A DNA stretch of 64,000 nucleotides from Bacteroidota bacterium (GTDB lineage: Bacteria > Bacteroidota > Bacteroidia > Bacteroidales > JACABE01), in contig JAPLDQ010000013.1 in NCBI GenBank assembly GCA_026391675.1, positions 1 through 64,000 on the forward strand. Direction: 5' to 3'. Position numbers and translations under genes: made by a program. The notes beneath the pieces were generated by a model. That model was not told the origin of the DNA and made no database searches. It worked only from the letters and a program-made list of their open reading frames with translations. Each line of letters begins with the position of its first letter. Position 1 is the stretch's first letter. This document shows, piece after piece, positions 25,699-58,402 of the stretch.

Positions 25699-25772
25699 GG
25701 GGCGTTAGCTCAGTTGGCTAGAGTGTCAGACTGGCAGTCTGAAGGTCATGGGTTCGACTCCCATACGCTCCA
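25699..25772 (+). tRNA. tRNA-Ala (GGC), likely integration site
   Basis: A 74-base cloverleaf: acceptor GGGGCGT with ACGCTCC (one G-T pair), D-arm GCTC/GAGT, anticodon stem TCAGA/TCTGA with loop CTGGCAG (anticodon GGC) and T-arm ATGGGTTCGACTCCCAT. CCA is not encoded. A tyrosine recombinase gene lies 76 bases downstream and faces it, the usual geometry of an element inserted at a tRNA 3' end. Confidence 0.95.
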
Positions 25773-25784
25773 CAAACAAAATCA

Positions 25785-34459: not shown

Positions 34460-37303
34460 ATGAATCTCACAATTGGACAAAGAATATCTACAAGAGGCGA
34501 AGATTTTATTATCAACAAAGTTGATACTAATCACGATGGTACATTCCTTATTTATGCTGAAGGAATAAGCGAGTTAGTTAAAGGTAAAAGATTTTCATTT
34601 GATTCTTATCTCGACACAGACATTAAACCAGTTGATCCAAATAAAACACTTTTAGTGCCTGATACAGATAGTGGATACCGAAAAACAAAATTGTTTTTGG
34701 AAACGCAAATTCGTAATGCTGCCATTTTCTCCGAAAAAATAACTATTGGTCACAAAGCAGCTATAGATGTTGCTGACTACCAATTAACTCCAACTATAAA
34801 GGCATTGCAACTGCCAAGACCAAGGTTGTTGATTGCTGACGGAGTCGGGCTGGGTAAAACCATCGAGGTAGGTATCTTTCTTTCCGAAATGATTAAACGT
34901 GGAAAAGGTAAACGAATCATGTTGCTTGCACCTAAATCTATCTTATCTCAGTTTCAGCAAGAGTTGTGGAATCGTTTTGCAATCCCACTGGTACGTCTAG
35001 ATTCTGAAGGGATAGCAAGAATAAAAACTGAGCTACCTGCTAATAAAAACCCATTTGAGTACTTTGATAAAACAATAATCTCCATAGACACATTGAAAAA
35101 TAATGCAAAATTCAGACATTATTTAGAAAAATCACGCTGGGACATTATCGTCATTGATGAATGTCATACTATTGCCAACGATAAAAGTCAGAGGGGTGAT
35201 TTAGCTCAGTTCCTGGCTAAAAAATGTGAGTCATTAATTCTTACATCTGCCACACCTCACAATGGAAGAAAAGAGAATTTTGCCAATCTTATTTCAATGA
35301 TTGAACCAACCGCTATTCCCAAAAGTGGTGATTATGACAAGAGCAATGTAGAGCCTTACTATGTCAGAAGGTTCAAAAATGATATTACAGAAGCAAATAT
35401 CAGAGCTAATTTTCAGGAAAGGGAAATTATTAGAGTCTCTGCACCATTGAGTTCTTACGAAGTCGATTTTCTGAAATTCCAACAAGAGCTTAAAATAAAA
35501 GCAATTAGTTCCATTAATGAAGGAAAACCTAAAGATGATTTTCTTTTTTCAATTGGGATTTTTAAAGCCTTTATGTCTTCACCTCAAGCTGCATTGGTTA
35601 GTTTGAACAAAAGAATTGAAAAGGTTTCTACACAAAACATACAGACAGGTTTATACGAAGAAAACTTAGACGTGTTAGAAACGCTAAGAAACAAAGTCAG
35701 ACTGGTAATTGAAAATAACAGTGATACAAAATACTCCAAACTCAGGGACACATTAATTTCATTGGGTTGGTCGGGTAAAAAGAATGACGATAGGTATGTG
35801 ATTTTTACTGAGAGCATTGCGACACTTCATTTTTTAGGAGATAAACTTAAAGATGATTTTAATCTGACAGATGAATCACTTAAATTCTTTCATGGTGTCG
35901 TACCCGAAACAGAGCAACAGAAAATAATTGAAGATTTTGGTAAAGCCGACAGTTCAGTTAAACTATTGATATGCTCGGATGCTGGTTCGCAGGGTGTAAA
36001 CCTACACTTCTTCTGCAACCGCATGTTTAATTATGACATACCATGGTCGCTAATAACCCTGGAGCAACGTAATGGTAGAATAGACCGATACGGACAAAAG
36101 AAAATTCCTTACATTTATTATTTAGTTGCCGAATCAGACATTGATGGATTAAAAACCGATTTACATATTGTTGAAAGACTTACTCAAAAAGAGGAGGTTG
36201 TATATAAAACGCTGGGGGATGCAGGTTCGGTAATGAAACTATATAATTCAACCAAAGAAGAAAAATTAGTTGAAAATGCGTTCCTAAAACAAGACGAAAA
36301 CTTCCTTGATAAAACTCAAAATACTAACAGCGATTTCGATTTTTCAACTCTTTTTGGAGATATTGATGATAAAACGCCTGCTATAATTACTAATAATCCA
36401 TTTGAAAAACCGCTTTCAATTTATCAGAAAGATGCACAGTTTTATAGTGAGTTGTTCGACCAATTAAAATCAAGCAACCAAATAGGTTCTAATGAAGTCA
36501 GCGTAAGCGATGGTTATGTTGAAATCTCCAATACTAAAGATTTGAATCAGGTATTATTTGACCTTCCATTAGAATCTAAACCATCCATTGGTGGATTGTT
36601 TAAACTTTCACTCGATAAAGATTTAGTTCAAAAATCGATTGAAGCTGCCAGAAAGAAAAAAGGTGAATGGGCTGAATTTCAGGTATTGTATGAATTACAC
36701 CCAGTTGTAAGATACTTTATGACCAAACTGGAAGCTAGTGTCCATAAAGACTCTGCTTTAGTTGCGAAATCGAGAAAACTACCTTCTGATTCTGCTTGGT
36801 TCGTATTTCACGGACAGGTTTCAAATAGTTTAGGTCAACCTGTTATTGCTGACTTTTTAGTAGTAGGCTTAAAATGGGACGGATCAATACTAAGAAAAAC
36901 ATTTGACTTGTCAGATTTTATTGATGAGTTTCAACTGAGGAGCCAATTATACACTGAAGAAATTCCTGAAACTGAACTTGGAAATTTACAAGAGATATTG
37001 ACAGATGCTGTTGAATGGGCTGTTGAACACATGTTCGAAGATCAACAACTACTTCAATTAAAAATGGAACAAAAGATGTCGATCTACCAATCAAAATTAG
37101 AAAAATGGCATACTGAAGCTATGCAACAACTTGAAATTGATTTTAGTGAGAGGTCGGTGGGTTATTTCTGGTCGAGAATCAGGGATTCGAAACAACGTGA
37201 AATTGAGACTATCTTAAGTAATTCAAGCCAATATTTCCAGGATTTAACCTCATTGCAGGGTGACCCATATTTAAAGGTGTTAGCCGTTTTTTATAATAAA
37301 TAA
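34460..37303 (+). CDS. SNF2-type superfamily 2 helicase, DrmD-like
   Basis: The 947-residue protein has a 120-residue N-terminal part, Walker A in ADGVGLGKTIE (near 126-136), MLLAPKSIL (motif Ia), a DECH box (near 234), LTSATPHNG (motif III), then the C-terminal helicase half with CSDAGSQGVNLHFF and QRNGRIDRYGQ (near 535-546). A 350-residue C-terminal extension has coiled-coil features near 860-900. This is the pattern of the SNF2-like helicase DrmD of DISARM class 1. The methylase gene follows 6 bases later. It likely translocates on double-stranded DNA and is the first gene of the operon. Confidence 0.85.
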   Translation: MNLTIGQRISTRGEDFIINKVDTNHDGTFLIYAEGISELVKGKRFSFDSYLDTDIKPVDPNKTLLVPDTDSGYRKTKLFLETQIRNAAIFSEKITIGHKAAIDVADYQLTPTIKALQLPRPRLLIADGVGLGKTIEVGIFLSEMIKRGKGKRIMLLAPKSILSQFQQELWNRFAIPLVRLDSEGIARIKTELPANKNPFEYFDKTIISIDTLKNNAKFRHYLEKSRWDIIVIDECHTIANDKSQRGDLAQFLAKKCESLILTSATPHNGRKENFANLISMIEPTAIPKSGDYDKSNVEPYYVRRFKNDITEANIRANFQEREIIRVSAPLSSYEVDFLKFQQELKIKAISSINEGKPKDDFLFSIGIFKAFMSSPQAALVSLNKRIEKVSTQNIQTGLYEENLDVLETLRNKVRLVIENNSDTKYSKLRDTLISLGWSGKKNDDRYVIFTESIATLHFLGDKLKDDFNLTDESLKFFHGVVPETEQQKIIEDFGKADSSVKLLICSDAGSQGVNLHFFCNRMFNYDIPWSLITLEQRNGRIDRYGQKKIPYIYYLVAESDIDGLKTDLHIVERLTQKEEVVYKTLGDAGSVMKLYNSTKEEKLVENAFLKQDENFLDKTQNTNSDFDFSTLFGDIDDKTPAIITNNPFEKPLSIYQKDAQFYSELFDQLKSSNQIGSNEVSVSDGYVEISNTKDLNQVLFDLPLESKPSIGGLFKLSLDKDLVQKSIEAARKKKGEWAEFQVLYELHPVVRYFMTKLEASVHKDSALVAKSRKLPSDSAWFVFHGQVSNSLGQPVIADFLVVGLKWDGSILRKTFDLSDFIDEFQLRSQLYTEEIPETELGNLQEILTDAVEWAVEHMFEDQQLLQLKMEQKMSIYQSKLEKWHTEAMQQLEIDFSERSVGYFWSRIRDSKQREIETILSNSSQYFQDLTSLQGDPYLKVLAVFYNK

Positions 37304-37309
37304 AGTGCC

Positions 37310-40300
37310 ATGATTAAGTTTATTAAAAATACAGGAGATTATTTTTCTTCAAATTATTTTGACGAGGATTTTACTACCAAAGTTCTCTCAAAATGTGGTT
37401 ATGGTGCAGATGATATAAAAGAATTTAATAAAAGGATTACACCTTTAAAAGACAGATTCTTTAAGTTTAAGCAGCTTTATATAGAAGGGCGCCTCAGAAC
37501 TAAAGATAAAATTAACGAAACAAATTTGTTTCACACTACATTACTCAATGCATTAGGTTATAACGGTAATAAAACGAATTATCATAAATTATTTCAGTTA
37601 ACAGAACAAGAAGCAATACCTGTTCGTCACATTCTGTATCGGGGTGAACAACCACACCTTATGATTATGGAAATGCAAGCATTAATCAAAGAGGATGATA
37701 CAGACCCTGATGGTCTGTTTGAACAACGATACAATGTAGAGGATGAATTATTATCAAATCCGCCTCAAAAGTACCATAGAAGTCAATGGGAAGACATATT
37801 TACAGTACCAGAGGGGATAAAAATTTCACCCGTAATTATAAACAAAGCAATTTCTGAACTTTTCTTACTAGAACCTCATTACCGTCCAAGATATATTCTT
37901 TTGTTAGCAGGGAATATTGTATATCTCCTTGAACAGGAAAAATGGTTCAGAGGAAGTTATTTAGAGTTTGATCTTGAAGAATTATTCAGTGAAGCAACTG
38001 CGAGTCCACGAGCAAATTATTATGCGCTTTTTTACTTCCTTACAAGCAAAGAAGCATTATCTCCAGAAAGTAATATGGTGCTTCTGGACCAATTAAATGA
38101 AGATAGCCACAAAAGTGCCTACGAAGTTACACAAGATCTGAAAGAAGGTATCATTCACGCAATAGAAACGCTGGCTAATGAAGCATTATATTACCAAAAA
38201 CAGATACTTAAAGAAGAATATGATGAAACTGATAATCAATTTGAACAGGAAATTAAGGACGATTGCTTAAGGATAATTTATCGTTTGCTGTTTATATTTT
38301 ATGCTGAAAGTCGTGAAGATTTGGATATTCTTCCAAGTAACGATCCTATCTATAACAAAGGTTATTCCCTTGAAATGCTTCGTGATTTAGAGCAAGTTCC
38401 CTTATACTCCGAAACCAGTTTGAATGGTTACTTCTTTCACGAATCATTAAGTAAGCTTTTCAAAGTTCTTAGTTCAGGATACCGTGAAATTGAAAATGGA
38501 AACAATAAAAGTTTCAGGGTACGACATATTGATTCACCTTTTTTTGATGAAAGAAAGCTTAAACACTTGTACAAGGTGAAGTTTCGGAACAAAATCTGGC
38601 AAGATATTATTTGTAGACTGTCTCTATCAAAAAAACAAAACAACCGATCAAGAGGTCGGATTTCATATGCAAATTTAGGAATAAATCAATTAGGCAGTGT
38701 TTACGAAAGTTTGTTGGCTTATCGTGGTTTTTATGCCGAAGTGGACTATATTGAAGTGCATAAAAAGGATAAACCAACTGAGGGAACTTACTTAGTACCA
38801 CGAAGTCGAATGGACGATTTTGATAATGGTGAAATATTAAAAGACATCAATGGCGATGTCATCATTTTAAACAAAGGTACTTTTGTATATCGACTAAGTG
38901 GAAGGGACAGACAAAAATCTGCATCTTATTATACACCAGAAGTTCTTACACAATCAACGGTAAAATACACATTGAAACCGATTTTAGAAAAGTTGGACAA
39001 AGATGAAATGAAAGCGGTTGACTTACTTGATTTGAAGCTTTTGGAACCAGCCATGGGCGCAGCTGCATTCCACAACGAAATGATTAATCAACTTGCTGAA
39101 GCCTATATCGCTTATCGCCAAAAAGAGTTAAGAGATGCTGGCAGAATTGAATGGAAAGTGGAACCTGATAAGTACAAAGAAGAATTACAAAAAGTTAAGG
39201 CTTATATAGCAACAAACAATGTATATGGTGTTGATTTAAATCCCACAGCCATTGAACTTGGAAAGTTGTCATTGTGGCTTAATGTGATACATAAAGACAT
39301 GGAAACACCTTTTTTTAGCAACCGTATTTGTGTAGGAAATGCAGTTGTGGGTGCTTGGCTAAAGGTTTACAAAGTATCTGATGTGGAACAAGAATATGGA
39401 ACAGATAAAAAACCACTAAAAAATCAACCAAATAAAGCATGGTGGGATAATGCTCCCAGGCAATTGGAATTTAAGTCACAAAATGATTATGAAAAGATAA
39501 AACATGGCAGAAAACAGGATGAAATCTATCACTTTCTTCTACCTGATAAAAATATGGTTCCTTCTGCAGGTATTAAAATGTTGAAAGATGAATACGTCTT
39601 ATTTACAAAAAAAGTAACAGAGTGGAAAAAGGAATGGACTAAACCTCTCAATAAGGAAGAAATTGAAAATCTAAAACTAATAAGTAATAAGATAGATGAA
39701 TTGTTAGCTGAGTATTATCAATTTCAAAGAACAATAAACATTAAAACCTGTACACGTCAGAATATTTTTGGAGCAGTTAAAAAGAATGAACAAGCAGAAC
39801 TGGGTCTGAGAAGCTACGATGAAAAAGAACGATTAGCCGACCAGCGAAACCGACATAATTCACCTTATTTTAAATTGAAATTGGTTATGGATTACTGGTG
39901 TAGTCTGTGGTTTTGGGATGTACGTCAGGCAGATGAGTTACCATCAAGAACACAATTTTGGAGTGATATTGCCAATATCTTGGATTTGGATACCAATAAA
40001 GCCATGGAAGGAATTCTGCTAAAAAGGGGGCAACAAAATCTTTTCGAAAGTATTACACAATTAAACATGGCTTTTGAATCAGATATAACCAGAAATGAGA
40101 AAAAAGAAGTAAATGCTACAACTGATTTTATAGATGCTGTGGTTGAATACACCAACCGTAAGGATTTATTTGATAATAACCAACGGCTTTCTATTGTGAG
40201 TGAGTTGGCAAAGAAATTCTTCTTTTTTCATCCGCAATTAGAATTTCTAGACGTATTCTGGGAACGTGCTGGATTTGATTTGATTGCAGGGAATCCCCCT

Positions 40301-42184
40301 TGGATAAGCGTAGGTCTCGATGAAAAAGGGATATTATCAACAAATAAACAAGAAATCCTAATAAGAAAATATTCCTCTCCTGAAATTAAAAAAATCTTAA
40401 CTGAATGTATCAAAAAAGATTCAGATCTTAAATTAATTCTTGTTGAAGAGAGTCTGGAATGTGAAAATCTTAAATCATTTATAACAAGTCACCAAAACTA
40501 TTTTAATCTCTCCAAGCAAAGAAATAATCTATATAAATGCATCCTTAATAATTCTTTACTCCTTCTCAATATAGAAGGTATTTCTGGAATAATACATCCT
40601 GAAGAATTTTATTTAGAAGCAAATGAAGGTATTTTGAGACAGAAGCTTTATTCAAACTTAATTTATCATTTTCACTTTCGAAATGAATTAAAACTGTTTG
40701 AAGGAGTTCAAAACCAACAAGAATTTTGCATCTCAATTTTCTATAAAAAGAAAGATTCTTATGGGTTCCATAACCTTTACAATCTTTTTCATCCTTGCAC
40801 AATATTCTTATCATTAGTTAATACATTGAATTATAGTGAATTGGGTGGTATAAAAGTTATAAATGAACAAAATGAAAAATTTGAATGGAATTTGTTACCA
40901 AGTTGTGATAGAGATATTTATTTAGATAAAAGTACATTATCTAAAATTACAGAAGTTGATAAAACTACAGGATTACCTAATGGGAAATTACCAAATATAT
41001 TTTCTCGTAAAATACTTCAAACAATAATTACACTATTCAAACTTGATCGTCTAAGCAAAAATTCAACGTTTTATGGAACAGATTGCTGGAATGAGGTAAA
41101 TGCGATAAATAATGGCCAAATTAAAAAGGTGACTAAATTTCCTGATTATGAGAAGAATGAAATGATTTTTAATGGTGCTCATTTTTTTGTTTCAAATCCA
41201 TTCTATCAATGCCCAATTGAGAGTTTTAAAAGAAATACTGATTATGACATAATTGATTTAACATCAATTAATGAAGATTTTTTTTCAAGAACAAATTTTA
41301 TTCCTGGTAATCGATTTGAAGACTATTTTAATTTAGAAGAAAATAATATATGGTTTGAGAATTATAAATTGGCTTTTAATAAGATGCTAGATCCTGCATC
41401 AGAGAGAACAATTAGACCAGTTATTATTCCTCCAAAGACCTCACATATAAATAGCGTTTATTCAGTAGTATTTAAGACAAATGTTGATTTAATTGTTACA
41501 ACTGGAATTACTTCATCGATAATATTTGACTATATAATTAAATCATCTGGAGCATCAAATTTAACTATTGAAGTAATTAATAACATTCCATATATTAATA
41601 CCGCGCAATCTCAAAATATATTCGATAATCTTACAGCAAGAGTTTTAAGATTAAATTGTTTAAATAAATATTATGATGTGCTATGGCAAGTAGTATATTC
41701 TGAAAGATACAATGCTATAAAATGGACTAAAAATGACTCTAGATTATCTCATTTTAAGTTTCTTAGCCAGAAATTAGAGTTTGAATCTGCTCTACGAAAT
41801 TCTTTTGAAAGAAGGCAAGCATTATTGGAAATTGATGTTTTGGTTTGTAAATTATTAAACTTAGAAATTGAAGAACTTATTTCAATCTATTTGGCTCAAT
41901 TTCCTATTGTTCAGCAATATGAATATGATACTTGGTATGATACCAAAGGAAATATCGTATTTACATGCAGCAAAGGCCTGATAGGTATAGGCTTGGATCG
42001 TAAGGAATGGGAACAGATAAAAAACATGCAGGTTGGTGAAACCTACGAACATACTATTACCAAAAGTGAATTATACCAGGGCAAGAAAATAACCTATTAT
42101 GCTCCTTTCGATAAATGTGACCGAGTAGAAGATTACAAAGTGGCATGGAAGCATTTTGAAGAGGTGTTTAACAAACAATTTTAA
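37310..42184 (+). CDS. large adenine-specific DNA methyltransferase, DrmMI-like
   Basis: The 1624-residue protein has a 520-residue N-terminal region, then the sequence GRDRQKSASYYTPEVLTQ that leads into the methylase core. Motif I is EPAMGAAAFHNE (near 578), the S-adenosylmethionine site, and motif IV is NPPW (near 994) in LIAGNPPWIS. About 415 residues lie between them, with a charged insert. This arrangement fits the Eco57I/PglX-like N6-adenine methylases and especially DrmMI of DISARM class 1, although this protein is longer. The C-terminal 600 residues should hold target recognition. It would mark host DNA as self. It lies between the SNF2 helicase and the sacsin-type ATPase genes. Confidence 0.85.
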   Translation: MIKFIKNTGDYFSSNYFDEDFTTKVLSKCGYGADDIKEFNKRITPLKDRFFKFKQLYIEGRLRTKDKINETNLFHTTLLNALGYNGNKTNYHKLFQLTEQEAIPVRHILYRGEQPHLMIMEMQALIKEDDTDPDGLFEQRYNVEDELLSNPPQKYHRSQWEDIFTVPEGIKISPVIINKAISELFLLEPHYRPRYILLLAGNIVYLLEQEKWFRGSYLEFDLEELFSEATASPRANYYALFYFLTSKEALSPESNMVLLDQLNEDSHKSAYEVTQDLKEGIIHAIETLANEALYYQKQILKEEYDETDNQFEQEIKDDCLRIIYRLLFIFYAESREDLDILPSNDPIYNKGYSLEMLRDLEQVPLYSETSLNGYFFHESLSKLFKVLSSGYREIENGNNKSFRVRHIDSPFFDERKLKHLYKVKFRNKIWQDIICRLSLSKKQNNRSRGRISYANLGINQLGSVYESLLAYRGFYAEVDYIEVHKKDKPTEGTYLVPRSRMDDFDNGEILKDINGDVIILNKGTFVYRLSGRDRQKSASYYTPEVLTQSTVKYTLKPILEKLDKDEMKAVDLLDLKLLEPAMGAAAFHNEMINQLAEAYIAYRQKELRDAGRIEWKVEPDKYKEELQKVKAYIATNNVYGVDLNPTAIELGKLSLWLNVIHKDMETPFFSNRICVGNAVVGAWLKVYKVSDVEQEYGTDKKPLKNQPNKAWWDNAPRQLEFKSQNDYEKIKHGRKQDEIYHFLLPDKNMVPSAGIKMLKDEYVLFTKKVTEWKKEWTKPLNKEEIENLKLISNKIDELLAEYYQFQRTINIKTCTRQNIFGAVKKNEQAELGLRSYDEKERLADQRNRHNSPYFKLKLVMDYWCSLWFWDVRQADELPSRTQFWSDIANILDLDTNKAMEGILLKRGQQNLFESITQLNMAFESDITRNEKKEVNATTDFIDAVVEYTNRKDLFDNNQRLSIVSELAKKFFFFHPQLEFLDVFWERAGFDLIAGNPPWISVGLDEKGILSTNKQEILIRKYSSPEIKKILTECIKKDSDLKLILVEESLECENLKSFITSHQNYFNLSKQRNNLYKCILNNSLLLLNIEGISGIIHPEEFYLEANEGILRQKLYSNLIYHFHFRNELKLFEGVQNQQEFCISIFYKKKDSYGFHNLYNLFHPCTIFLSLVNTLNYSELGGIKVINEQNEKFEWNLLPSCDRDIYLDKSTLSKITEVDKTTGLPNGKLPNIFSRKILQTIITLFKLDRLSKNSTFYGTDCWNEVNAINNGQIKKVTKFPDYEKNEMIFNGAHFFVSNPFYQCPIESFKRNTDYDIIDLTSINEDFFSRTNFIPGNRFEDYFNLEENNIWFENYKLAFNKMLDPASERTIRPVIIPPKTSHINSVYSVVFKTNVDLIVTTGITSSIIFDYIIKSSGASNLTIEVINNIPYINTAQSQNIFDNLTARVLRLNCLNKYYDVLWQVVYSERYNAIKWTKNDSRLSHFKFLSQKLEFESALRNSFERRQALLEIDVLVCKLLNLEIEELISIYLAQFPIVQQYEYDTWYDTKGNIVFTCSKGLIGIGLDRKEWEQIKNMQVGETYEHTITKSELYQGKKITYYAPFDKCDRVEDYKVAWKHFEEVFNKQF

Positions 42185-42196
42185 ACGAATATTATT

Positions 42197-45100
42197 ATGA
42201 GTGTGAAGTTTAGTTTGGTAAGATTCTTAAAAAGAAACAATATTCAATTGAATCGCTTTTATGCAAAGCTAAAAGGAGATGACTCTAAAACGTATTTTGG
42301 GGAAATTTATTCAGTTGAATCGAATCAAGTAGTATTAAACGAAAAGGATAAAAGATTACAAATATTTTTCCCGAGAGAAAACAAACAATTTGAACTAAAT
42401 ATAACATATGAATTTAGCCTAATTGTAAATTATGATGAAGGGAAAAATAAGGAAAGTGTTTTTATTGAATACAAAAACAACCCACCTAAGGCTTTAGCTA
42501 ATTTAAGTAATCAAACAAAGGTAGGTGTAATTAAAAATAATCCAGAAATAATCCAGAAAAGAACAGTTATTCCATTAAAAGCTAATCCAATGGTTGAATC
42601 TTTTCTATTTAAAAATGGAATTAAAACAAATAGGTTTTATGGGAAATGTATCCTAACCGAGAAAGGAAATTATATATTTTGTGAAGTAATTTCAAAAGAA
42701 GATGGAAATTTCTTATTAGATAATTCAGGTAACAGACAAACAGTTTTCATTGGCAAGGAATCAAAGCTATGTATGGTTGAAAGTTTCTATGAGTTTAGTA
42801 TACATATAGACTTTGATAAAGAGACTAATGATGAGTTCCTGAAAGTTGATTCGAAAATAAATCTTCCTCATAAACTTGAACTGAATCCTTATAAAGAAAT
42901 TGTTAGACTTAGATACGAGCGTCTTGATAATCCTGAAGCAAATAAAATGATTGCAAATCTGATGAGAGAGATTGGTAAAGGACTTTATTCTTCAAAACAA
43001 CGAATGATATTTGAGTTACTTCAGAATGCAGATGATACACCTGCTTGTGATGAAGTACATTTTTATATAGTTACACATGAAGATTATTTTTTAATAATGC
43101 ATAATGGAATCCCATTTAATAGAGATGATGTTGAAGCTATAACAAGTGCTGCCGAAAGTACCAAAAGACTTGATCGAAAAAAAACGGGTTATAAAGGGAT
43201 TGGATTTAAGTCTGTATTTACTGACAGTGAAGAGGTAATAATTAAATCGGGTGGTTACTTATTTAGCTTTATGCGGAATTACAATGGATTTGATAATTTT
43301 GATAGTTTTTATTTCAATAAGCAAAGATATTTAGATTATCCAAAACTACTTGAAGAAGATAAACTTAAATACACAAAACAGCGTAAAAGTTTCAATGGTA
43401 ATACAGATATTCCATGGCAATTAATACCAATTTGGCAAGATAGTGTTCCTGAAGTTTTGCAAGATACAAGGTTCGTTCAGTTTGAGAATAATAATAATGT
43501 AGGGATTGCTATTAAATTTGGTGAGGAAAAAATAAAAGGGTATTTAGATGCTGTTGCTGCATTTGCTCAAAAACCTCATTTTATGTTATTTCTCAGAAAT
43601 GTTACACTTTTTAAGTCTTTTAAGAATCAAGTTGAAATTAAAAAATCTGGAATTAATCCGATTACAATTGAAAGAAAAAATTGGGATAGTGATGATTTTG
43701 TAATAAAGTATTTTAAAAAAGAAATTGATAATATTGAAGTTAATGATGAATCTTTAGCTCAAGAAGGAGTCCATATTTACAAACGAGAGAAATTGAATGA
43801 TTATGGCGAAAAGAATCACTATTTTAGTCACGATATTGAAGGTAAAAAGGAAATAGAATCAATTCCACCAAAACTAGCAGCATTTGATAAAACAACCATT
43901 ACATTCGCTGCACCAATTATAGACGCTAAACTACAAGCGGAGCCTGAATATTTAAGCGGAAAATTAACATCCAGTTTCTTTACTTATTTGCCAATGAAAG
44001 AGCAGAGAATTTCTTTGCCATTTCTTGTAAATGCTGATTTTGTTCCTGATTCTAGTCGAGAAAAACTACAAGGTGATAATCAGTGGAATGAATATATTAT
44101 AGCTAAAATAGCCAGGAATCATGTTTTATGGTTAAAGGAGCTAGCAGAACAGTGTATAGAGTATAAACAGGTTCATCCCGAATACCTTTCATTATTACTA
44201 AAAGAACCAATACAATATGAAGATACAATAAATCAACTGATAAATAAATATAACAGTATATATCTAGAAACAATTGAAAACACGCCGTTTGTACTTACTG
44301 AAAATTTGGTAGTCTTACAAAAGAATGAGATAATTATTGATAAAATCGGGCTTTCAGATATTTTGGGAGTTGATTCATTTTATACTCTTTCAGAAACAAC
44401 AAAAAAACTTCCATCTAAAAACATTAACATAAAATATCTTTTTAGTAAGTACTTAGAAATTGAAAAATTTGATCATGAAGTATTCATATCATTATTAGAA
44501 GAGGATGATAAAAAAGAAATTTTAAGAAATACCATATCTGGTTTAAATAAAAGTCAATATACTAGGTTTCTAGATTGGTTTGATAAAATGACACTGAAAT
44601 TTAATTTTGAGAAAGATTGGTTGTTTTTTATCCCTTTTATAAAGGTAAATGACAGTGTCTTTTCTTTAGAAGAAATTCTTAAAAATGAGTTTATAATACT
44701 GAATACAAGTTCATTAAATGTTGTATCTGATATACTTATAAAGCTGGGATTTGAATTGACGAACAAAACCTTAGATAAATATACATCTATTTGGGATAAA
44801 CTTGATGTTTACAATATTGATGAAGAAATACTATATGGAAAAATTGCAAATAGTAATAAGCTATCATTACTTGATGCAAATGAAAAATCAAGATTAATAA
44901 CATTTTTAGCTAAATTAGATAATATTGGCGATACTAAATATGCTCAGTCATTATTATTATTTAAAAGTCAGGATAAAAGCAAAACTTTAAAACCACTTGG
45001 AAAATTAATTTCAAATACAATTAAAAACTTACCAAAGTGGTTAGAGCCTTTAAGAATTAATCTGAAGGAAGAAAACGCACTTAATCCTTCTTTTAAGAAA

Positions 45101-47968: not shown

Positions 47969-47974
47969 TAAACT

Positions 47975-49762: not shown

Positions 49763-49765
49763 AAG

Positions 49766-52700
49766 ATGTTACCATTACAACAGGCATATGAAGTAAAATA
49801 TTCAATACTTGAATATCTTAAAGCTACTTTTAGTTTCAAAGATAAGACTGTTCATGAGGCTTTCTACAATTTCATTAATGATAATGAAAATGGAATTTTC
49901 AAAGGACCTTATATCTCTTTAAAGTTGCCGTTTGTAAAAGCAGAAGATAAAGATTATATTCCATTAGTGATAAAGCCCAATTTCCCCCCATATGACCACC
50001 AACTTAAAGCATTTAAACGATTAACAAACCAAAATGGTCACACACCTAAATCAACTTTAATTACAACAGGTACATCTTCGGGTAAAACGGAGTGTTTTAT
50101 GTATCCAATTCTTGATTACTGCTACAATATGCAACACAAGCTGGGAATTAAAGTAATCATACTTTATCCAATGAATGCATTGGCTACTGACCAAGCAAAA
50201 AGATTAGCTGAAACTATATGGAACGATGAAAGATTAAAAGGTAAAATAACTGCTGGATTATTTATTGGTGAAGGAAAAGATAAGAAGAAATTTCCCAAAG
50301 ACATGGGATTTGAAAATATAATTGAAAACAGACAAAGTATTGTAGATAGCCCTCCTGATATACTTTTGACTAATTTTAAGATGCTTGATTATTCTTTAAT
50401 GAGAAATACATTCCATAACCTGTGGAACTTCAACATTAATGACACGACATTGCTTCAATATATAGTTTTAGATGAGTTGCATACTTATGATGGTGCTCAG
50501 GGAACTGATGTTGCTAATCTTATAAGAAGGTTAAAACTTAAACTTAAAATAGAAAAAGGTCAAATTTGCGCAGTAGGTACTTCAGCTACAATGGGTTCAG
50601 GAGAAGATTCAACCAAGCTATTAATTGAATATGCAGAAAAAGTATATGGTGAAAGTTTTGACAATAACTCTATAATAACTGAACATAGACTTAATGTCAA
50701 TGATTTTTTTGATGATGATGAAACCTTAGATAGATATATCCCAAGACAAATTGGTCTTGTTGATAGCAGACTAGCAGAGAATGAAACTTATTCATCTTAT
50801 ATTCAAAGACAGAAAAGACTTTGGCAAATACCTGAAGCAGTTAATGAAACTCAGTTAGGCGAAGAGTTAAAAAAACTCAAATTAGTAAAAGACCTGGTGT
50901 CAATTACTAATGTCGAAATTAAAGAATTAAGAGATTTATTAAAGGAATTAGCTGATTTAAACCATGAATTTAAACGTCTCTCAGAATGGGATAGTGTGAA
51001 TGAATTTAACCCTAGAGAAGAGATTATCAATTCTATTTTAGCTCTGATTAGTGAGGCTAAAACAAAAGATAAAAAAAAATCAGCATTTTTATATCTCCAG
51101 ATTCAAATTTGGATTAGAGAACTTAGTGGTGTCCTAAGAGAATTATCAGAAATGCCAAAGTTTGTATGGAAAGATGCTGTTGGAGATAAAAAAGAACCAA
51201 AAGCAATGCCATCATATTTTTGTCGTGAATGTGGATCAAGTGGATGGTTGATGGTCAAAGACGATAATAAAAACTTTTTTTCAAAAGATCCTAGTCAAGT
51301 TTATGATTATTTCTTCAGTAACCATAAGAATATATATTTTACAAATACAATTAATCATAAACATGTAGAAGAATACGAGCCTAATATTGTTTTAAATGAC
51401 TATTTGAATGTTATTGATTTAAGTCTAAGTAGTAATACAGGCGAGAATCAATTAAGGATTCACTCAGTCAGAAAACTAAAAGAGAATAAAGCTCGACATA
51501 TTTGTCCCGAATGTAATACTGAAAATACAATAGGAATTATCGGCACCAGGGTAGCTACTCTTTCGTCTATTACTATTAGTCAGATTTTGTCTTCTGATCT
51601 TGACCCGAGACACGAGAAATATAGAAAAATTTTAGCCTTTACTAATAGCGTTCAGGATGCAGCACATCAAGCTGGATTTGTTGAAGCAAGAAATTATCGC
51701 TTTACTTTTCGTTCCTCATTACAAAAAGTTATTAACATACTAAATAAACCAGTTTCATTAAATGAACTTCAAGAAGAATTTATAAAATATTGGAAAACAA
51801 ATGCTGATCCATCAGGTGAAAACAATGAGGAAGCTTATTTTTATAGATTCCTTCCAGATGATTATAAAGGGAAAGTTGATTTAGCCAATGATTTTAAATT
51901 TCAGAATAAATTCTCAGAAGAATTTAAACATGAGTTTGATTTAAGAATAAAATGGGAAGTTGCCTCTGAATTTGGATATAATGCTCTTATTGGTAGAACT
52001 TTAGAAAAAACAGGTGCATCAGCAACAAAGTTCGATGAAGAAAAACTTAAAGAGGTGTATCCTAAAATAAAGGATTGGCTTTTTACAAATGATATTAATA
52101 TTACTGAAGCTGAGTTGATGCCATTTATTAATGGTATGCTTCATAGAATAAGAACTCGTGGAGGAATAGATAACGAATACTTCAGTAAGTTCAGGTCAAA
52201 TAAATTAGAGCTTAGAGACCTCAATTGGTGGCAGGATAGCAGACATTTTTTAAACAAGAATTTTGGAATGAAATCAAGACTTCCGAAGCTAATTACAAAT
52301 GAAAGTCATTCGAAAGGGATGCTGGATTTTACCCATTCAACTTCTAATACATGGTTTAAAAATTATTTTTCAAAATCATTTCAAAATGCTCAAAACTATA
52401 ATGCAATTGTAAATGACTTTTATAGTGAATTACTTGATACTTTAACAGAAGTTGGGATTTTGAATAAAGTAATAAACAAAAATAATAACAATTATGCCAT
52501 ATTACCTGAATCTATAATAATTGAAAATAAAGTAAAATGTCATGAATGTAATAGTTGTGCTTCTAAATTGAATGTTGCTGAAAGTGATAATTTAACAGTT
52601 CAAACAAATTGTCTGGATTATACTTGTAAAAGTGGTATATATTTTCCAAAACCACCTACAAGACCAAATTATTACCAATTAGTATATAACAGGAATAGAT

Positions 52701-55700
52701 CACCACGTATTTATGCAGCTGAACATACAGGCCTTCTTGAAAGGAAAGATCGTGAAAATAAGGAAACTGACTTCAAAGAACGACCAAAATTTAACTCATT
52801 AAATACCATTGTTGCTACTTCTACACTTGAAATGGGTATTGATATAGGTACGTTGAACACAGCTATCAACAATTCTATCCCACCACTTACATCTAATTTC
52901 CTTCAAAGGGTTGGACGTGCAGGACGAAGTACTGGAACTGCTTTAATTACAAACTTTGCTCAGAGTAAGCCTCATGATTTATTCTATTATCAAGAGCCTT
53001 CTGATATGATGGACGGTGAGATAGCTACACCAGGTTGTTATCTTGAAGCGAAGGATATATTATTCAGGCATTTTTTTGCATTTTGTCTTGATAATTGGTC
53101 AAGTGATGATCCCAAAAACCATAGTATCCCATCTCGATTAATTACCCTGAGATTACTTACTACTGACTTAAATACACCTGATTTTTTCCCAAATCGTATC
53201 ATTTCATATATTAAATCAAAAGAAAATGAATTTTTAAATCGGTTCAATGAATTTTACAAACCCGATTTAGAAGATATTAAAGTATTAGAACTCTTAAGAG
53301 AATATTTACTTGAAGAATCTTTTTATAATAGGTTGAGAAAAGTTTTTGAAAAATTAAAGGCTGAGTACCAATATATTTTTGAAAAAAGATATGAGATTGA
53401 CGAATCTATAAAAATTAACAAACTTGCTGAAAATGATGATGAAAGAAAAACACTTGAATCCGAAAAGAAAGCATTATGGGGATTAAAAAGATTACTAGAT
53501 AAACGATCATTACTTGAGCATCTTACAAACGTTGGAATGTTACCAAACTATGCTTTTCCTGAAACTGGAGTGACACTTAATGCATGGGTGAAAGACAATC
53601 AGGCAAAAGGTAGTAATAGTATTCCTCGTGATCACCAATTTGAAATAGTAAGATCATCCAATGTTGCTATAAGGGAGTTTGCTCCAGATAATCATTTCTA
53701 TTCGCAAGGTTATAAATTTGATATATCAGGTATTAATACATTTGACTGGAAAGATACGGGTACTTTAATTGAAAAACGATTCTGTTCCAATTGTGACAAT
53801 ATTGAAATTGCGGTCAAGGCAAATGAGATTACATGTCCCAAATGTGGTGACAGTTCTTGGTCGTCAGTTAAAAACAAACACATCTTTGTCAGGCTAAATG
53901 GAGTCAAATCAGCAAATACGAGAGATAAAGCTACTTTGGATGATAGTAGCGATGACCGTGATTCGAGCCAGTATAAAATTTCGAAGCATATTAAGTTCGA
54001 TGATAATAGTTTTCAAGGTGCTTGGGGAATGAAGGATATTCCTTTTGGTATTGAGTACGTAAAGAATGCAGACATTCAGATAGTTAATCTTGGTTTGTTT
54101 TCAACAGTTGATGCAAACAAAATTTCAATAAACAATATTGAAAACGTACCTTATCATGGTTTTGTAACATGTAAGCATTGTGGTAAAAGTTCATCAGAAC
54201 CTCATAAAGCAAGGTTTGATAAAAACTTCAAATTTCATTATGGATATTGTAAATATAAAAACATACTTTATCAGGGACATCGTGATGAGGTGTTTGAGGA
54301 AGTGTATCTATTTAAAGAAATGAAAACTGAGGCTTTAAAGGTACTTTTACCTGTTCAAGACTTTGATGGTGAAGCGCAAGTAAAAATGTTTAAAGCTGGA
54401 TTAGAGTTAGGACTTAAAAAATACTACAAAGGAAACCCACAACACATCAGCATACTCGACTATCTTGAGTATAATGTCCAAAATTCAAGGTTCGACAGAT
54501 ATTTGGTAATACACGATAATATTGCAGGTGGAACAGGTTATTTAGAAAAACTATTCAATCCTGTTGAATTTACCGAAGTTATAACAAAGGCATATCAGGC
54601 TATAAAGGAATGTTCATGTCAACACAATGGTAAAGATGGGTGTTACAGATGTATATTCACTTATTCAAATCAATCTATTCAGAATGAATTAAGTAGGTCA
54701 GTTGCCGAGAAACTATTCAAAAAAATTGTTGATAAATCAAGTGCTTGGGAAAGATATAATTCGGGAATAAATAAGTTAACAGGCAATGGTCAAATTGAAG
54801 AAAGTGAGCTTGAAGATCGCTTTATCAGAAGTTTACGGAATCACATACAGACTAAAGAAATTGAAGGCTGGTTATTTGAAGATTTTATTCAAGATGGTGT
54901 GGTTAATTATAAATTTAGAATTAAAAATGGAAACGATTCATATAGTTATTTCATTAGGCCACAGGTTGAATTAGGAAAGTCTGATGGTATTTCATACCGA
55001 ACAAGAACAGACTTTTATATTACTTTAACAAGTATTAATATAAATGGTCAACCGATTGAAGATATTTCTGTATTATCTTCTTTTAAAGATATAGCAATTT
55101 ACTTGGATGGTTATACATATCACGCTACCAAGGAAAATCAACGATTCTTTAATGATTTACAAAAACGTAATTCAATAGTCAATTCTGGTAATAAGTTATC
55201 CTGGACATTAACCTGGGATGATTTAGAAAGGTTTGATTCTACTGATGAACATTCAAAGAAGGATAATTTGGCATTGACTTCTGATCACTATAATACAATG
55301 AATATTTATAAAAACATCCCATATTGGATGAAATTTAGTAGTGAAATTATTCAGACATCAAACTCAATGGATAGATTAATTTGGCTATTATCTAACCCTA
55401 AACAGGATCAATTTGTAATTGAAAAAACGAATTTGTATTTGTCACTTTTGCAAATAGAATTTGGAAAACCTTCTGTAGATGAAAAAGAAATTGAAAATTA
55501 CTTTTTAAAGTTTACAAATCAACCTGAAACCACACAGATTGCTTCAAATCGGACAAGCGGTCAATTTTATGTTTTTCCTGAAATTCAAATTAATGAATTA
55601 AACATAATAAAATTTACAAACGCTATCAAACTCTCCGATTTAAAACTAAAATCATCACTTTATGTTGATGAGATTAATGAAGCAATAAATAAAGAAACTT

Positions 55701-56041
55701 GGGAAAAATTTTGGCAAATATATAATCTAACACAGCAATCAACTCAAATTATATTTGGTGATCAAATGACAGAATCCGAAATTGACAAATATGAATGTTT
55801 AAAATATCATGATGTTGAATTACATAGTATTGTAAAGCAATTTATTGATAACAATTTTGATTTTGAAAAAGAAGGCGGTTTCTTTCTTCCAAATGGAAAT
55901 GGTTTTGCAGAAGCTATGTTAGGTTCTCATGAGTATAAATTTTTTATAAATCCATTATCAGAAGTTGATCGTCAGATATTTTTAAAATCAGGATTCATTG
56001 AAATTGAACCAGCAAAATTTAACATTAATAATATACAATAA
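49766..56041 (+). CDS. DEAD-box helicase with DUF1998 region, DruE-like (or fused DrmA-DrmB)
   Basis: The 2091-residue protein has Walker A TTGTSSGKTECF (near 100), a DELH box (near 235), GTSATMGSG (motif III), two Cys pairs in FCRECGSSGW and HICPECNTEN, then TLEMGIDIG (near 1021) and QRVGRAGRS (near 1046). The DUF1998 zinc region follows: CSNCDNI, ITCPKCGDSSW, and a last cluster CSCQHNGKDGCYRC (near 1614) after DNIAGGTGYLEKLF. The C-terminal 400 residues include YLDGYTYH and LSWTLTWDDL, which recall the PD-(D/E)xK or Vsr-like end of this family. The length and order match Druantia DruE. In DISARM the helicase (DrmA) and DUF1998 (DrmB) parts are separate. It begins 3 bases after the UPF1-like gene. 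Confidence 0.85.
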   Translation: MLPLQQAYEVKYSILEYLKATFSFKDKTVHEAFYNFINDNENGIFKGPYISLKLPFVKAEDKDYIPLVIKPNFPPYDHQLKAFKRLTNQNGHTPKSTLITTGTSSGKTECFMYPILDYCYNMQHKLGIKVIILYPMNALATDQAKRLAETIWNDERLKGKITAGLFIGEGKDKKKFPKDMGFENIIENRQSIVDSPPDILLTNFKMLDYSLMRNTFHNLWNFNINDTTLLQYIVLDELHTYDGAQGTDVANLIRRLKLKLKIEKGQICAVGTSATMGSGEDSTKLLIEYAEKVYGESFDNNSIITEHRLNVNDFFDDDETLDRYIPRQIGLVDSRLAENETYSSYIQRQKRLWQIPEAVNETQLGEELKKLKLVKDLVSITNVEIKELRDLLKELADLNHEFKRLSEWDSVNEFNPREEIINSILALISEAKTKDKKKSAFLYLQIQIWIRELSGVLRELSEMPKFVWKDAVGDKKEPKAMPSYFCRECGSSGWLMVKDDNKNFFSKDPSQVYDYFFSNHKNIYFTNTINHKHVEEYEPNIVLNDYLNVIDLSLSSNTGENQLRIHSVRKLKENKARHICPECNTENTIGIIGTRVATLSSITISQILSSDLDPRHEKYRKILAFTNSVQDAAHQAGFVEARNYRFTFRSSLQKVINILNKPVSLNELQEEFIKYWKTNADPSGENNEEAYFYRFLPDDYKGKVDLANDFKFQNKFSEEFKHEFDLRIKWEVASEFGYNALIGRTLEKTGASATKFDEEKLKEVYPKIKDWLFTNDINITEAELMPFINGMLHRIRTRGGIDNEYFSKFRSNKLELRDLNWWQDSRHFLNKNFGMKSRLPKLITNESHSKGMLDFTHSTSNTWFKNYFSKSFQNAQNYNAIVNDFYSELLDTLTEVGILNKVINKNNNNYAILPESIIIENKVKCHECNSCASKLNVAESDNLTVQTNCLDYTCKSGIYFPKPPTRPNYYQLVYNRNRSPRIYAAEHTGLLERKDRENKETDFKERPKFNSLNTIVATSTLEMGIDIGTLNTAINNSIPPLTSNFLQRVGRAGRSTGTALITNFAQSKPHDLFYYQEPSDMMDGEIATPGCYLEAKDILFRHFFAFCLDNWSSDDPKNHSIPSRLITLRLLTTDLNTPDFFPNRIISYIKSKENEFLNRFNEFYKPDLEDIKVLELLREYLLEESFYNRLRKVFEKLKAEYQYIFEKRYEIDESIKINKLAENDDERKTLESEKKALWGLKRLLDKRSLLEHLTNVGMLPNYAFPETGVTLNAWVKDNQAKGSNSIPRDHQFEIVRSSNVAIREFAPDNHFYSQGYKFDISGINTFDWKDTGTLIEKRFCSNCDNIEIAVKANEITCPKCGDSSWSSVKNKHIFVRLNGVKSANTRDKATLDDSSDDRDSSQYKISKHIKFDDNSFQGAWGMKDIPFGIEYVKNADIQIVNLGLFSTVDANKISINNIENVPYHGFVTCKHCGKSSSEPHKARFDKNFKFHYGYCKYKNILYQGHRDEVFEEVYLFKEMKTEALKVLLPVQDFDGEAQVKMFKAGLELGLKKYYKGNPQHISILDYLEYNVQNSRFDRYLVIHDNIAGGTGYLEKLFNPVEFTEVITKAYQAIKECSCQHNGKDGCYRCIFTYSNQSIQNELSRSVAEKLFKKIVDKSSAWERYNSGINKLTGNGQIEESELEDRFIRSLRNHIQTKEIEGWLFEDFIQDGVVNYKFRIKNGNDSYSYFIRPQVELGKSDGISYRTRTDFYITLTSININGQPIEDISVLSSFKDIAIYLDGYTYHATKENQRFFNDLQKRNSIVNSGNKLSWTLTWDDLERFDSTDEHSKKDNLALTSDHYNTMNIYKNIPYWMKFSSEIIQTSNSMDRLIWLLSNPKQDQFVIEKTNLYLSLLQIEFGKPSVDEKEIENYFLKFTNQPETTQIASNRTSGQFYVFPEIQINELNIIKFTNAIKLSDLKLKSSLYVDEINEAINKETWEKFWQIYNLTQQSTQIIFGDQMTESEIDKYECLKYHDVELHSIVKQFIDNNFDFEKEGGFFLPNGNGFAEAMLGSHEYKFFINPLSEVDRQIFLKSGFIEIEPAKFNINNIQ

Positions 56042-58128
56042 TGAAACTATTCATTCATGACAAATGCATGGAGAGGTTGATTGAACTTCCCAAAGCAATA
56101 GCGAAAAAAGTATTGGAATTCAATAAGAAATTCAGAGAAAATTCACGTTCTGAAGCAATTCATTTAGAACCAATAATTACATTTAAAGATTCGTCACTAA
56201 GAACAGCAAGAATCGACCAAAAATATAGGGCAATTATAGGTGTTGCTTCAGGTGATAATTATCATTTATTATGGGTAGACAACCATGATGAAGCCATGGA
56301 TTGGGCAAAAAACAAGGTATTTGAGTGGAACGAAAATACGCAAATTGCACAGATTTATTCAATGCCAAATAATATTGATGTAAATGTACTAAGACCTGAA
56401 AATGTATCAAATGTTTTGTTTTCTAATTATTCTGATATTGAATTAATTAATATTGGTGTTCCAGTTACTCTTATTGAACTTGTAAAAGGAATATCTGATT
56501 TAAAAGAACTTGAGGCTGCAGAAAAATTCTTACCAAATGATGCATTTGAAAATTTGTTTTATTTATCCGAAGGAATAAGCATAACTCAATTGATTTCAGA
56601 GATAAATGATGGAAAATCAAGTTCTATTAATTCGGAAGATCAATTAAATAGTAATAATAATAAACGTTATTTTGTTGAAGTAGATGATTTGTTGATGGAC
56701 GAAATAATCAATGGTGACTTTGTTAAATGGCAAACATTTCTTCATCCAACACAACGTCAATTGGTTGAGTCAAATTTTAAAGGTTCTGTGAAAGTTTCTG
56801 GTGGAGCTGGAACTGGAAAAACAGTTGCAGCATTACATAGATTAAAAAAATTATCAAGCGAACAAGATAAGACTGATTTTAGGAAAATTATTTTTATAAC
56901 ATTTACAAATGCATTAACAAAGAACTTAAAGAATTTAGCAAACAAACTCTCTATAGATAATTCAAAAGTAATAATTACTAACATTGATTCATTAGTCAAA
57001 GAATTAGCCTTAAATGCTAAAATAACTACTATAAATTCAAGGATACTTGATATGTATAATTCTAAAAGTAGTGCTGAAGTGTGGGATGAAATTTTGGAAA
57101 ATAATCTTAGTGAATTTGAAGTCCGTTTTCTTTCAGCAGAATATCAGAATGTAATTTTATATAATGATGTTAAAACTCTTGATGTCTATTTAAATACAAG
57201 TAGAATAGGAAGAGGTAAACCATTGACTCGTAAACAAAAAATTGATATTTGGACTTTGGTTGAGAAATACAAGCATTTTAAACAATCTAATGATTTTTTT
57301 GATAGATATGAGCTTTTTAATCTTCTTTCAAATTATAATGATAAAAATGAAATAAAACCGTTTAAACATGTTATTGCAGATGAAATTCAAGATCTATCAA
57401 ACGTTGAATTACGACTTTTGCGATCACTGGTAGAGGTAAAAGAAAATGATATGTTTCTAGTTGGTGATCCATATCAGAAAATCTATGATAAGAAAATCAA
57501 TTTCTCTTCTGTAGGAATTTCAATTAGAGGTAATCGAAGTAAACAATTAAGAATTAATTATAGAACATCTGAAGAAATAAAAAAATTAGCTATCTCTACA
57601 ATTAAAGGAATAAATTACGACGATTTCGATGGTGAACAAGAAAAACTAGTGGGGTATTTATCTGTCTTTCATGGAGAACGTCCAATCTATGAAATATTCT
57701 CTACAAAAGGTCAAGAAATTGATTTTGTTATTGAGAACCTATCAATTCTAAAGGACACTGGATTAAATTTAAATGCAATGGCAATAGGATCAAGAACAAA
57801 AGATGGGTTAAAGGATATCAAAACATTACTCCACAAATTAAAAATACCCTATAATGATATTACAACATCTTCATCAAATGATTCGGATGGAATTGTATTA
57901 TCAACATTTCATGGATTAAAAGGTCTTGAATTTAAAGCATTGTTTCTTATTGATGTTAATAATAGAACATGCCCATTAATAGTTAGTGATTTTTATAAAA
58001 TGGATGAAAATGAGAAAACAGAATATATAAGCAGAGAAAAAAGTCTTATTTATGTTGCAATGACAAGAGCAATAACCTTTCTTATGATAACTGGTACTGG
58101 AATAAAATCCGATAGTATTTGTATTTAA
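56041..58128 (+). CDS. UvrD-type superfamily 1 helicase with ParE/RelE-like N-terminus
   Basis: The 695-residue protein starts with about 105 residues like a ParE/RelE toxin fold: MERLIELPKAIAKKVLEFNKKF, TARIDQKYRAI and NYHLLWVDNHDEAMDWA. A linker leads to the helicase: VSGGAGTGKTVAALH (near 253), IADEIQDLS (near 445), VGDPYQKIYD (near 473), LRINYRTSEE, STFHGLKGLEF and YVAMTRAITF (near 671). The core is short, with no clear 2B domain. Its start codon overlaps the stop of the preceding gene (TAATG), so translation is coupled. The toxin-like part could target the translation apparatus or only mediate binding. Confidence 0.85.
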   Translation: MKLFIHDKCMERLIELPKAIAKKVLEFNKKFRENSRSEAIHLEPIITFKDSSLRTARIDQKYRAIIGVASGDNYHLLWVDNHDEAMDWAKNKVFEWNENTQIAQIYSMPNNIDVNVLRPENVSNVLFSNYSDIELINIGVPVTLIELVKGISDLKELEAAEKFLPNDAFENLFYLSEGISITQLISEINDGKSSSINSEDQLNSNNNKRYFVEVDDLLMDEIINGDFVKWQTFLHPTQRQLVESNFKGSVKVSGGAGTGKTVAALHRLKKLSSEQDKTDFRKIIFITFTNALTKNLKNLANKLSIDNSKVIITNIDSLVKELALNAKITTINSRILDMYNSKSSAEVWDEILENNLSEFEVRFLSAEYQNVILYNDVKTLDVYLNTSRIGRGKPLTRKQKIDIWTLVEKYKHFKQSNDFFDRYELFNLLSNYNDKNEIKPFKHVIADEIQDLSNVELRLLRSLVEVKENDMFLVGDPYQKIYDKKINFSSVGISIRGNRSKQLRINYRTSEEIKKLAISTIKGINYDDFDGEQEKLVGYLSVFHGERPIYEIFSTKGQEIDFVIENLSILKDTGLNLNAMAIGSRTKDGLKDIKTLLHKLKIPYNDITTSSSNDSDGIVLSTFHGLKGLEFKALFLIDVNNRTCPLIVSDFYKMDENEKTEYISREKSLIYVAMTRAITFLMITGTGIKSDSICI

Positions 58129-58207
58129 TAAATTCATAGTCTTTTTTCAAATATGACATTATTGTTAACACTGATGATTGAAAAGAAGATTGAAAAAAAA
58201 TAATTGA

Positions 58208-58402
58208 ATGATAAAAATAAAGGGAAACATTACAGAAGAAACAGGGAATATAAAAGCAAAAAGTCCAAATGATATCCAGCGAAAAAAAATTTTGGAAGAC
58301 TACACAATAGAGGAATTAAACGAAATGCCCCCACAAGTCGTGATGGAATTGTTTGCAGAATCTGCTTTACAAGATTTTACAGATGATGAGAATGATATTT
58401 AA
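58208..58402 (+). CDS. small acidic protein, 64 aa, unknown function
   Basis: A frame from ATG 58208 to TAA 58402 encodes an acidic peptide (MIKIKGNITEETGNIKAKS ... ALQDFTDDENDI) without a recognised domain. It lies 79 bases after the UvrD-type helicase gene and could be the last gene of the defence operon. The next gene is on the other strand and overlaps its end by 4 bases. A short peptide like this might be an inhibitor or a partner of the operon proteins, but nothing shows it. Confidence 0.5.
   Translation: MIKIKGNITEETGNIKAKSPNDIQRKKILEDYTIEELNEMPPQVVMELFAESALQDFTDDENDI

Follow-up and report, generated by a model that had tools for sequence, protein, structure and literature searches.

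The closest described relative of the operon analysed here is ARMADA Type II, which, in the accessible part of its description, consists of four genes in a strict order encoding a BrxHII-like ArmA, a PglX-like ArmB, a YprA-like ArmC with a C-terminal Vsr-type nuclease and a RelE-GajB-like ArmD with an N-terminal RelE-like domain (Bell et al. 2025 preprint, PMC12458937). The system was studied in E. coli NCTC 12900 and ATCC 8739, where phage protection by the core leaves the cell alive and depends on each of the four genes, and the same authors call ARMADA a missing link between DISARM and Druantia (PMC12458937). The other papers found that name ARMADA do so once or twice, in passing. Here, we describe six genes lying at 34460-58128 in a stretch of 64,000 nucleotides (nt) from a Bacteroidales bacterium (contig JAPLDQ010000013.1 of assembly GCA_026391675.1), called the window below. 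With a probability of about 0.6, we consider this operon to be an ARMADA Type II with an interchangeable accessory slot between armB and armC, holding a two-gene backup-effector cassette.

The ARMADA Type II core and the DISARM/Druantia alternative

The coordinates and translations of the open reading frames (ORFs) confirmed six genes, all on the plus strand. Gene 1 (34460-37303; 947 amino acids, aa) is armA and encodes a BrxHII/RapA-like SNF2 helicase; gene 2 (37310-42184; 1624 aa) is armB, for a PglX/YeeA-like adenine methylase which matches the PADLOC profile REase_MTase_IIG with 1499 bits. They are followed by gene 3, or g3 (42197-47968; 1923 aa), a sacsin/Tiamat-like GHKL ATPase, and gene 4, or g4 (47975-49762; 595 aa), a UPF1-like SF1 helicase, which with their spacers fill the slot at 42185-49765. 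Gene 5 (49766-56041; 2091 aa) is armC, encoding a YprA/DruE-like DEAD helicase with an MZB (DUF1998) domain and a C-terminal nuclease-like domain, and gene 6 (56041-58128; 695 aa) is armD, for a GajB/UvrD-like helicase with an N-terminal extension. The spacings are, in order, 6, 12, 6 and 3 nt, with a 1-nt overlap between armC and armD, and because the genes lie 3-12 nt apart, the core and its cassette are probably on the same transcript.

The core was compared with the ARMADA operon of E. coli ATCC 8739. The four proteins are homologous to their counterparts over most of their length, with identities of 36% for ArmA (968 columns), 35% for ArmB (1503 columns), 29% for ArmC (1907 columns) and 31% for ArmD (710 columns, N-terminal part included). 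The relative order armA-armB-armC-armD is kept, except that armB and armC are set apart by g3 and g4. All eight residues mutated by Bell et al. are conserved in the window proteins: the Walker residues K133 and D233 in ArmA, G583 of the S-adenosylmethionine motif and N995 of the NPPW motif in ArmB, K107 and D236 in ArmC, and K260 and D447 in ArmD. Judged by homology, genes 1, 2, 5 and 6 are thus ArmA, ArmB, ArmC and ArmD of ARMADA Type II.

Two features of the published description were looked at separately. ArmC carries the DEAD, Helicase_C and MZB (DUF1998) domains in Pfam, and its nuclease-like residues E1683, D1749, D1781, H1786, D1797 and R1801 are present in 60-61 of 61 homologues. A model of residues 1650-2091 (mean predicted local distance difference test, pLDDT, of 69) was compared by VIA-align 2, which placed BsoBI first (Z 8.4, root-mean-square deviation 3.2 over 138 residues; next Z 5.3) and did not list Vsr, in a tool which warns that unmatched models often reach Z 7-8. 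The ArmC C-terminus thus models as a restriction-endonuclease-like fold (BsoBI), with Vsr specifically not established. Foldseek gave no match to the same model at E <= 0.001, and a PDB sequence search with the corresponding profile was empty up to E 1. In ArmD, the UvrD domains are present and the N-terminal part has no RelE-family match in Pfam; homology to the E. coli protein spans this part.

The first-pass annotation of this DNA had read the operon as a combination of DISARM class 1 and Druantia parts, with genes 1 and 2 as drmD and drmMI and gene 5 as DruE or a fusion of DrmA and DrmB. This fits the names given by PADLOC-DB in its 2023 version, older than the ARMADA paper, in which genes 1 to 6 are DrmD, REase_MTase_IIG, TmtA, Mko-like helicase, DruE and GajB, with DrmD and DruE as the best named matches of genes 1 and 5. 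Gene 1, however, reaches 344 bits against the NCBI DrmD cut-off of 610, and gene 5 matches E. coli DruE over 253 and 352 columns only, against 1907 for ArmC, while all four core genes match one published system. A new hybrid of the two systems is thus very improbable and was rejected on the match to ARMADA; genes 1 and 2 do resemble DISARM class 1, and gene 5 resembles DruE.

Individual systems were also compared, and DISARM class 1, Druantia and Gabija did not fit. For DISARM class 1, the window has one fused helicase-MZB protein, and no PLD match (DrmC) was obtained in any of the six proteins; in the available text on DISARM, DrmA and DrmB are separate proteins and are joined by a PLD nuclease (PMC12458937). 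For Druantia, no other profile matched in the operon among the best 25 matches listed for genes 1, 5 and 6. Gabija is represented by the match of gene 6 to GajB (106 bits), with no GajA among the matches listed for the six proteins. Finally, HmaA of PADLOC matches gene 1 with 207 bits; Hma is described, in the part of the source available, as three genes with a 5-methylcytosine (m5C) methylase.

Other statements of the first-pass annotation held up better. Its domain calls (SNF2, methylase, sacsin-type ATPase, UPF1-like, DEAD/DUF1998 and UvrD-type) agreed in outline with the profile searches, its junctions of 3-12 bases or overlaps are those given above, and it correctly saw one anti-phage-type operon with a self-marking-type adenine methylase. 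It was also right that the two middle genes are foreign to both DISARM and Druantia; they belong to a variable slot, which a single sequence could not reveal. The UvrD-type gene, which it placed outside both systems, is ArmD. A single named system covers four of the six genes, leaving g3 and g4 outside. The span it proposed, 34460-58402, starts correctly but ends about 270 nt beyond the last stop codon, inside a minus-strand glycosylase-like gene.

A slot between armB and armC

The position of the two additional genes was compared with that of relatives. From at least 564 ArmC relatives found by a scan with an ArmC alignment, the 80 best matches to the window, near-copies included, were taken, and a junction was called opened when its gap exceeded 300 bp. 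Opened junctions numbered 0 of 33 for armA-armB, 23 of 46 for armB-armC and 2 of 63 for armC-armD, these two being one gap of 302 bp and one with ORFs on the opposite strand; the 34 loci not counted at armB-armC had an armB that was absent, truncated, unrecognised or off the contig. Fisher tests on these counts gave 1.8e-7 and 5.9e-9, with kinship ignored. In the 27 loci where all three junctions were readable, the opened ones were 0, 12 and 1, respectively, and a stricter rule, by which a gap had to contain one or more ORFs of 90 aa, gave 0, 21 and 1. Large armA-armB insertions might escape notice with a flank of 10 kb, and a direct-predecessor measure was therefore added: armB directly follows armA in 31 of 36 cases and armD follows armC in 62 of 69, against 21 of 65 for armC after armB, misses including contig edges, shadow ORFs and loci without armB. 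The insertions thus sit mainly at one junction of the core, and 48 of 49 slot ORFs are on the operon strand.

A less biased first draw of genomes (395 of the phylum, 395 of the class and 295 of the order) gave a long ArmC-type match in 16, the window's own included. Both armB and armC were readable in 12 of them: five have a filled slot (the window, G239, G580, G601 and G883), and seven an empty one (G342, G366, G374, G304, G488, G380 and G039). G440, G312, G491 and G631 were left out of the count. Four of these genomes are also among the 80 loci (G374 as L101, G580 as L072, G631 as L075 and G440 as L091). In G440, a Salinivenus (L091, L056), a full-length armC is accompanied by two large unidentified ORFs of 821 and 1042 aa where armB is expected.

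Other collections were searched as well. In E. coli, the armB-armC region was found in 518 of 5426 genomes, 461 of them covering at least 80% of the query, and in each of the 25 matches listed out of the 518 the alignment crosses the junction with no extra length. The slot also looks empty in plasmid copies from Pseudanabaena, Tsukamurella and E. coli, and that of Nostoc linckia holds a 185-aa ORF. ArmC occurs in eight IMG/VR loci, of which six have a readable armB-armC junction, and three of these six hold ORFs.

The slot has been filled and emptied repeatedly. An ArmC tree was made from 61 rows, of which 29 have an occupied slot and 32 an empty one; it requires no fewer than 16 switches between the two states, 14 of them forced by well-supported branches; shuffled labels gave about 20.5 changes on average, and occupancy is therefore partly clustered. 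The six-row Bacteroidota clade of the window is occupied in 6 of 6 rows with four kinds of content, namely g3 and g4 in the window, AbiE in G239, a sacsin-type protein with NOV_C in L074 and L078, and AlbA_2-HATPase in L072 and L084. The boundaries are sharp: in L086, L155 and L157, DNA homology is lost within about 15 nt of the armB stop codon and picks up again no more than about 15 nt from the armC start. Two Nostoc loci share a block of 97% identity that opens precisely with the armC start codon, against 74% identity on the armB side.

Cargo of the slot

To characterise the cargo, 36 of the 95 collected slot ORFs, plus those of G239, Nostoc and the window, were run against the family library. 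For L073, L077, L083, L088 and L120, armB is out of view, and we infer the slot position from their adjacency to armC. The contents found were AbiEi/AbiEii pairs (recognised by profile in G239 and L083, and in L120 because it clusters with these two); two GmrSD_N proteins with a third ORF (G601); sacsin-type ATPases (window, L073, L074, L078 and G883); AlbA_2-HATPase_c_4 proteins (L072 and L084, with L086 and L154 by clustering); Orf5/HEC-06/mREase_IV (L097, with L104 by clustering); kinase-like PD-T4-6/mad6 (L106, with L145 by clustering); PDDEXK proteins (L088 and L077); and, in single loci, a PbeA-like helicase (L087), PDC-M28B (L099), SIR2_2 (L134), AAA_21 with DUF6088 (L121), DprA (L140), NOV_C (L130), an IrrE-type protein (L136), HSP70 (L089) and DUF932 (L152). 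A 1627-aa slot protein of Simplicispira (L114:1564-6447) joins a NERD nuclease, a kinase-like and a UPF1-like helicase part. When ten cargo proteins were run against PADLOC, seven matched (L086 weakly), and Pfam matched 8, 7 and 5 proteins in three sets of ten.

In the window, g3 matches the NCBI profile of the sacsin N-terminal domain, NF047352, with 77.5 bits for a cut-off of 50. In PADLOC it matches TmtA, a profile without curated cut-off, with 306 bits over residues 233-809, and a longer TmtA profile more weakly over 268-1870. The residues of the GHKL site are kept in all four aligned sequences; models of residues 1-830 from four sequences had a mean pLDDT of 34 and were unusable, and the g3 profile matched no PDB sequence up to E 0.1. 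A search of 395 genomes of the phylum with g3 found matches in 15 of them at E <= 0.001, mostly within the ATPase domain. The g4 protein matches AAA_11 (68.5 bits) and has intact Walker motifs, with the Walker A GPPGTGKS at position 219. At E <= 1e-40, its only matches in 385 genomes of the phylum were in the window's own genome and in G291; none of 38 plasmid records covers 80% of g4, and IMG/VR contains one weak relative.

The g3-g4 pair recurs in the same slot of a second genome. In G883, of the same taxonomic order as the window, armA and armB are followed by orthologs of g3 (34% identity over 1748 columns) and g4 (44% over 593 columns) and then by armC, just as in the window. There g3 overlaps g4, g4 overlaps armC, and armC is 68% identical over half of its length. 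Its armB (L184:10383-15281) has a premature stop inside the NPPW motif, and its armC ends near a contig edge, the second half being on another contig (L186). In G491, of the same class, the contig starts inside a g4 ortholog (41%) that stands directly before armC (49%) and armD. The first-pass annotation had proposed a search for the same neighbourhood in other genomes, and G883 supplies it; because the same genes come in the same order there, the six-gene arrangement is not due to chance.

The repetition of this order in G883, together with the position of g4 before armC in G491, could be taken to mean that the window's lineage has a fixed ARMADA subtype of six components, with g3 and g4 built into the core machine. 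We find this improbable, since the slots of the nearest relatives by armC, G601 (71%) and G239 (65-66%), which are about as near to the window as G883, contain genes other than g3 and g4. Moreover, the E. coli system works with four genes, according to the available text (PMC12458937), and a related pair exists without ARMADA. This pair, in G291 (L065:12163-19012), consists of a g3 relative followed by a g4 relative (30-32% identity) fused to a PIN domain. Genes for a pAgo and a YhcG-type nuclease immediately precede the pair, which lies in a Type I restriction island, and no ARMADA gene was present within the 19 kb examined. From its gene content, it is a candidate stand-alone defence pair.

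The G291 pair also bears on another explanation, in which g3 and g4, AbiE, GmrSD and the others are independent or selfish defence units that have no functional link to ARMADA and persist at the armB-armC junction because insertion elsewhere in the operon is harmful. That a relative of the pair stands outside ARMADA agrees with such passengers, as do the great diversity of slot contents and the nature of AbiE, a toxin-antitoxin pair able to maintain itself. Against it, nearly all slot ORFs share the strand of the operon, the junctions are tight, and many cargo proteins resemble defence or toxin families and not random genes. On balance, we regard the absence of any functional link as unlikely, but as the most serious of the alternatives.

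Proposed function, genomic setting and comparison with known systems

Several points weigh against an ARMADA with an accessory slot for backup effectors. About half of the loci have an empty slot, and therefore the core does not need cargo; in the smaller first-draw sample it was occupied in 5 of 12. The 80 loci are those most similar to the window and include near-copies, with Fisher tests that ignore kinship, and one armA-armB insertion, a 117-aa ORF, does occur in G883, outside the 80-locus sample. This G883 copy may itself be inactive or misassembled because its armB is interrupted and its armC cut. Among the cargo, 3 of 10 proteins had no PADLOC match, 2, 3 and 5 of 10 in the three sets had no Pfam match, and the HSP70, DUF932 and IrrE-type proteins are not plainly defensive. 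What the cargo does, we infer.

From published work and domain content, ArmB would mark self DNA, and ArmA, ArmC and ArmD would attack unmarked phage DNA. By analogy with PrrC in EcoprrI, with the immunity-suicide coupling hypothesis and with the auxiliary effectors of BREX, the g3-g4 cassette would be a semi-autonomous second layer. In such a cassette, the GHKL ATPase could serve as sensor or switch and the SF1 helicase would act on nucleic acid, perhaps RNA because a g4 relative carries a fused PIN domain. The cassette would fire on failure or inhibition of the core, like PrrC inside the EcoprrI restriction operon. More tentatively, and as a proposal that we would not yet bet on, the armB-armC junction may have evolved as a docking slot, with the core as a platform co-expressing and gating whatever cassette is plugged in (AbiE and GmrSD pairs, AlbA- and sacsin-type ATPases, kinases, SIR2), so that many second-line responses would be interchangeable and the sacsin-ATPase and UPF1-helicase would form an undescribed two-gene defence module.

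A slot open in about half of the assessed loci, with contents varying among close relatives, offers a direct way to find new defence modules, the recurring sacsin-ATPase/UPF1-helicase pair being a concrete candidate. It also makes it possible to test a hypothesis of 2012, that back-up effectors are gated by the primary immune system (PMC3506569, as far as its accessible text goes), for which PrrC is the well-studied case.

The operon lies in a variable region whose left edge is a tRNA-Ala(GGC) gene (25699-25773, plus strand), 8.7 kb before the operon start. G003, of the same genus, shares this tRNA, and its DNA colinearity with the window breaks off 6 nt beyond it. Next to it is a putative integrase of 430 aa (25848-27140, minus strand), with a weak match to phrog_216 only (E 1.1e-6) and none in Pfam or NCBIfam; the recombinase that the first-pass annotation had placed beside the operon thus corresponds to a weak integrase match about 7 kb upstream of it. 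With a phage-family protein at 27643-28419 (phrog_2045, E 3e-88) and a protein of 985 aa that matches phrog_25531 (E 3.5e-19) and, at no better than E 0.009, a helicase-primase, the segment 25699-33321 looks like a mobile-element backbone. No repeat of the tRNA 3' end was found in the 91-kb contig except a 13-base inverted match, and the right end of the island was not found; eight flanking proteins had no match in the other fetched loci, G239 included. To the right, an OGG-like DNA glycosylase (58399-59061, minus strand) is accompanied by two ORFs that match no family and by a HipA-like kinase (61680-62984). The E. coli ARMADA II is likewise reported on tRNA-integrated elements in the text available (PMC12458937).

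Several known systems share parts of this arrangement. DISARM class 1 has a related SNF2 helicase, methylase and YprA-type helicase, and Druantia a YprA-type helicase, but neither has the gene set of the window. Tiamat is a single-gene system with a sacsin-type ATPase, whose TmtA profiles match g3; g3 is longer, paired with a helicase and nested in another system. Extra effectors at a modification-based defence locus are known from BREX, where varied auxiliary or backup nuclease effectors occur within or beside BREX and BREX-related loci (Rakesh and Krishnan 2026, PMC12839542), whereas ARMADA cargo sits at one junction; the accessible text of that article makes no mention of ARMADA, DISARM or Druantia. 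The EcoprrI type IC restriction operon harbours prrC, a gene for a second-line effector (PMC3874165, from the part available), which is nested in a restriction-modification operon as the slot cargo is in ARMADA; PrrC is one known effector restrained by the enzyme, against many kinds of cargo whose interaction with the core is putative.

The slot itself was not found in print in the ARMADA or nested-defence-gene literature, supplements and subscription papers being outside the scope, and the available main text of Bell et al., its supplements likewise outside the scope, has no wording for accessory or inserted genes, no sacsin and no Tiamat (PMC12458937). ARMADA Type II has so far been described, in that text, as four genes in strict order, from E. 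coli versions whose slot looks empty. The window shares these four genes and their relative order and conserves the eight mutated residues; it differs by an identity of 29-36% and by two extra genes between armB and armC, where the E. coli versions examined have none.

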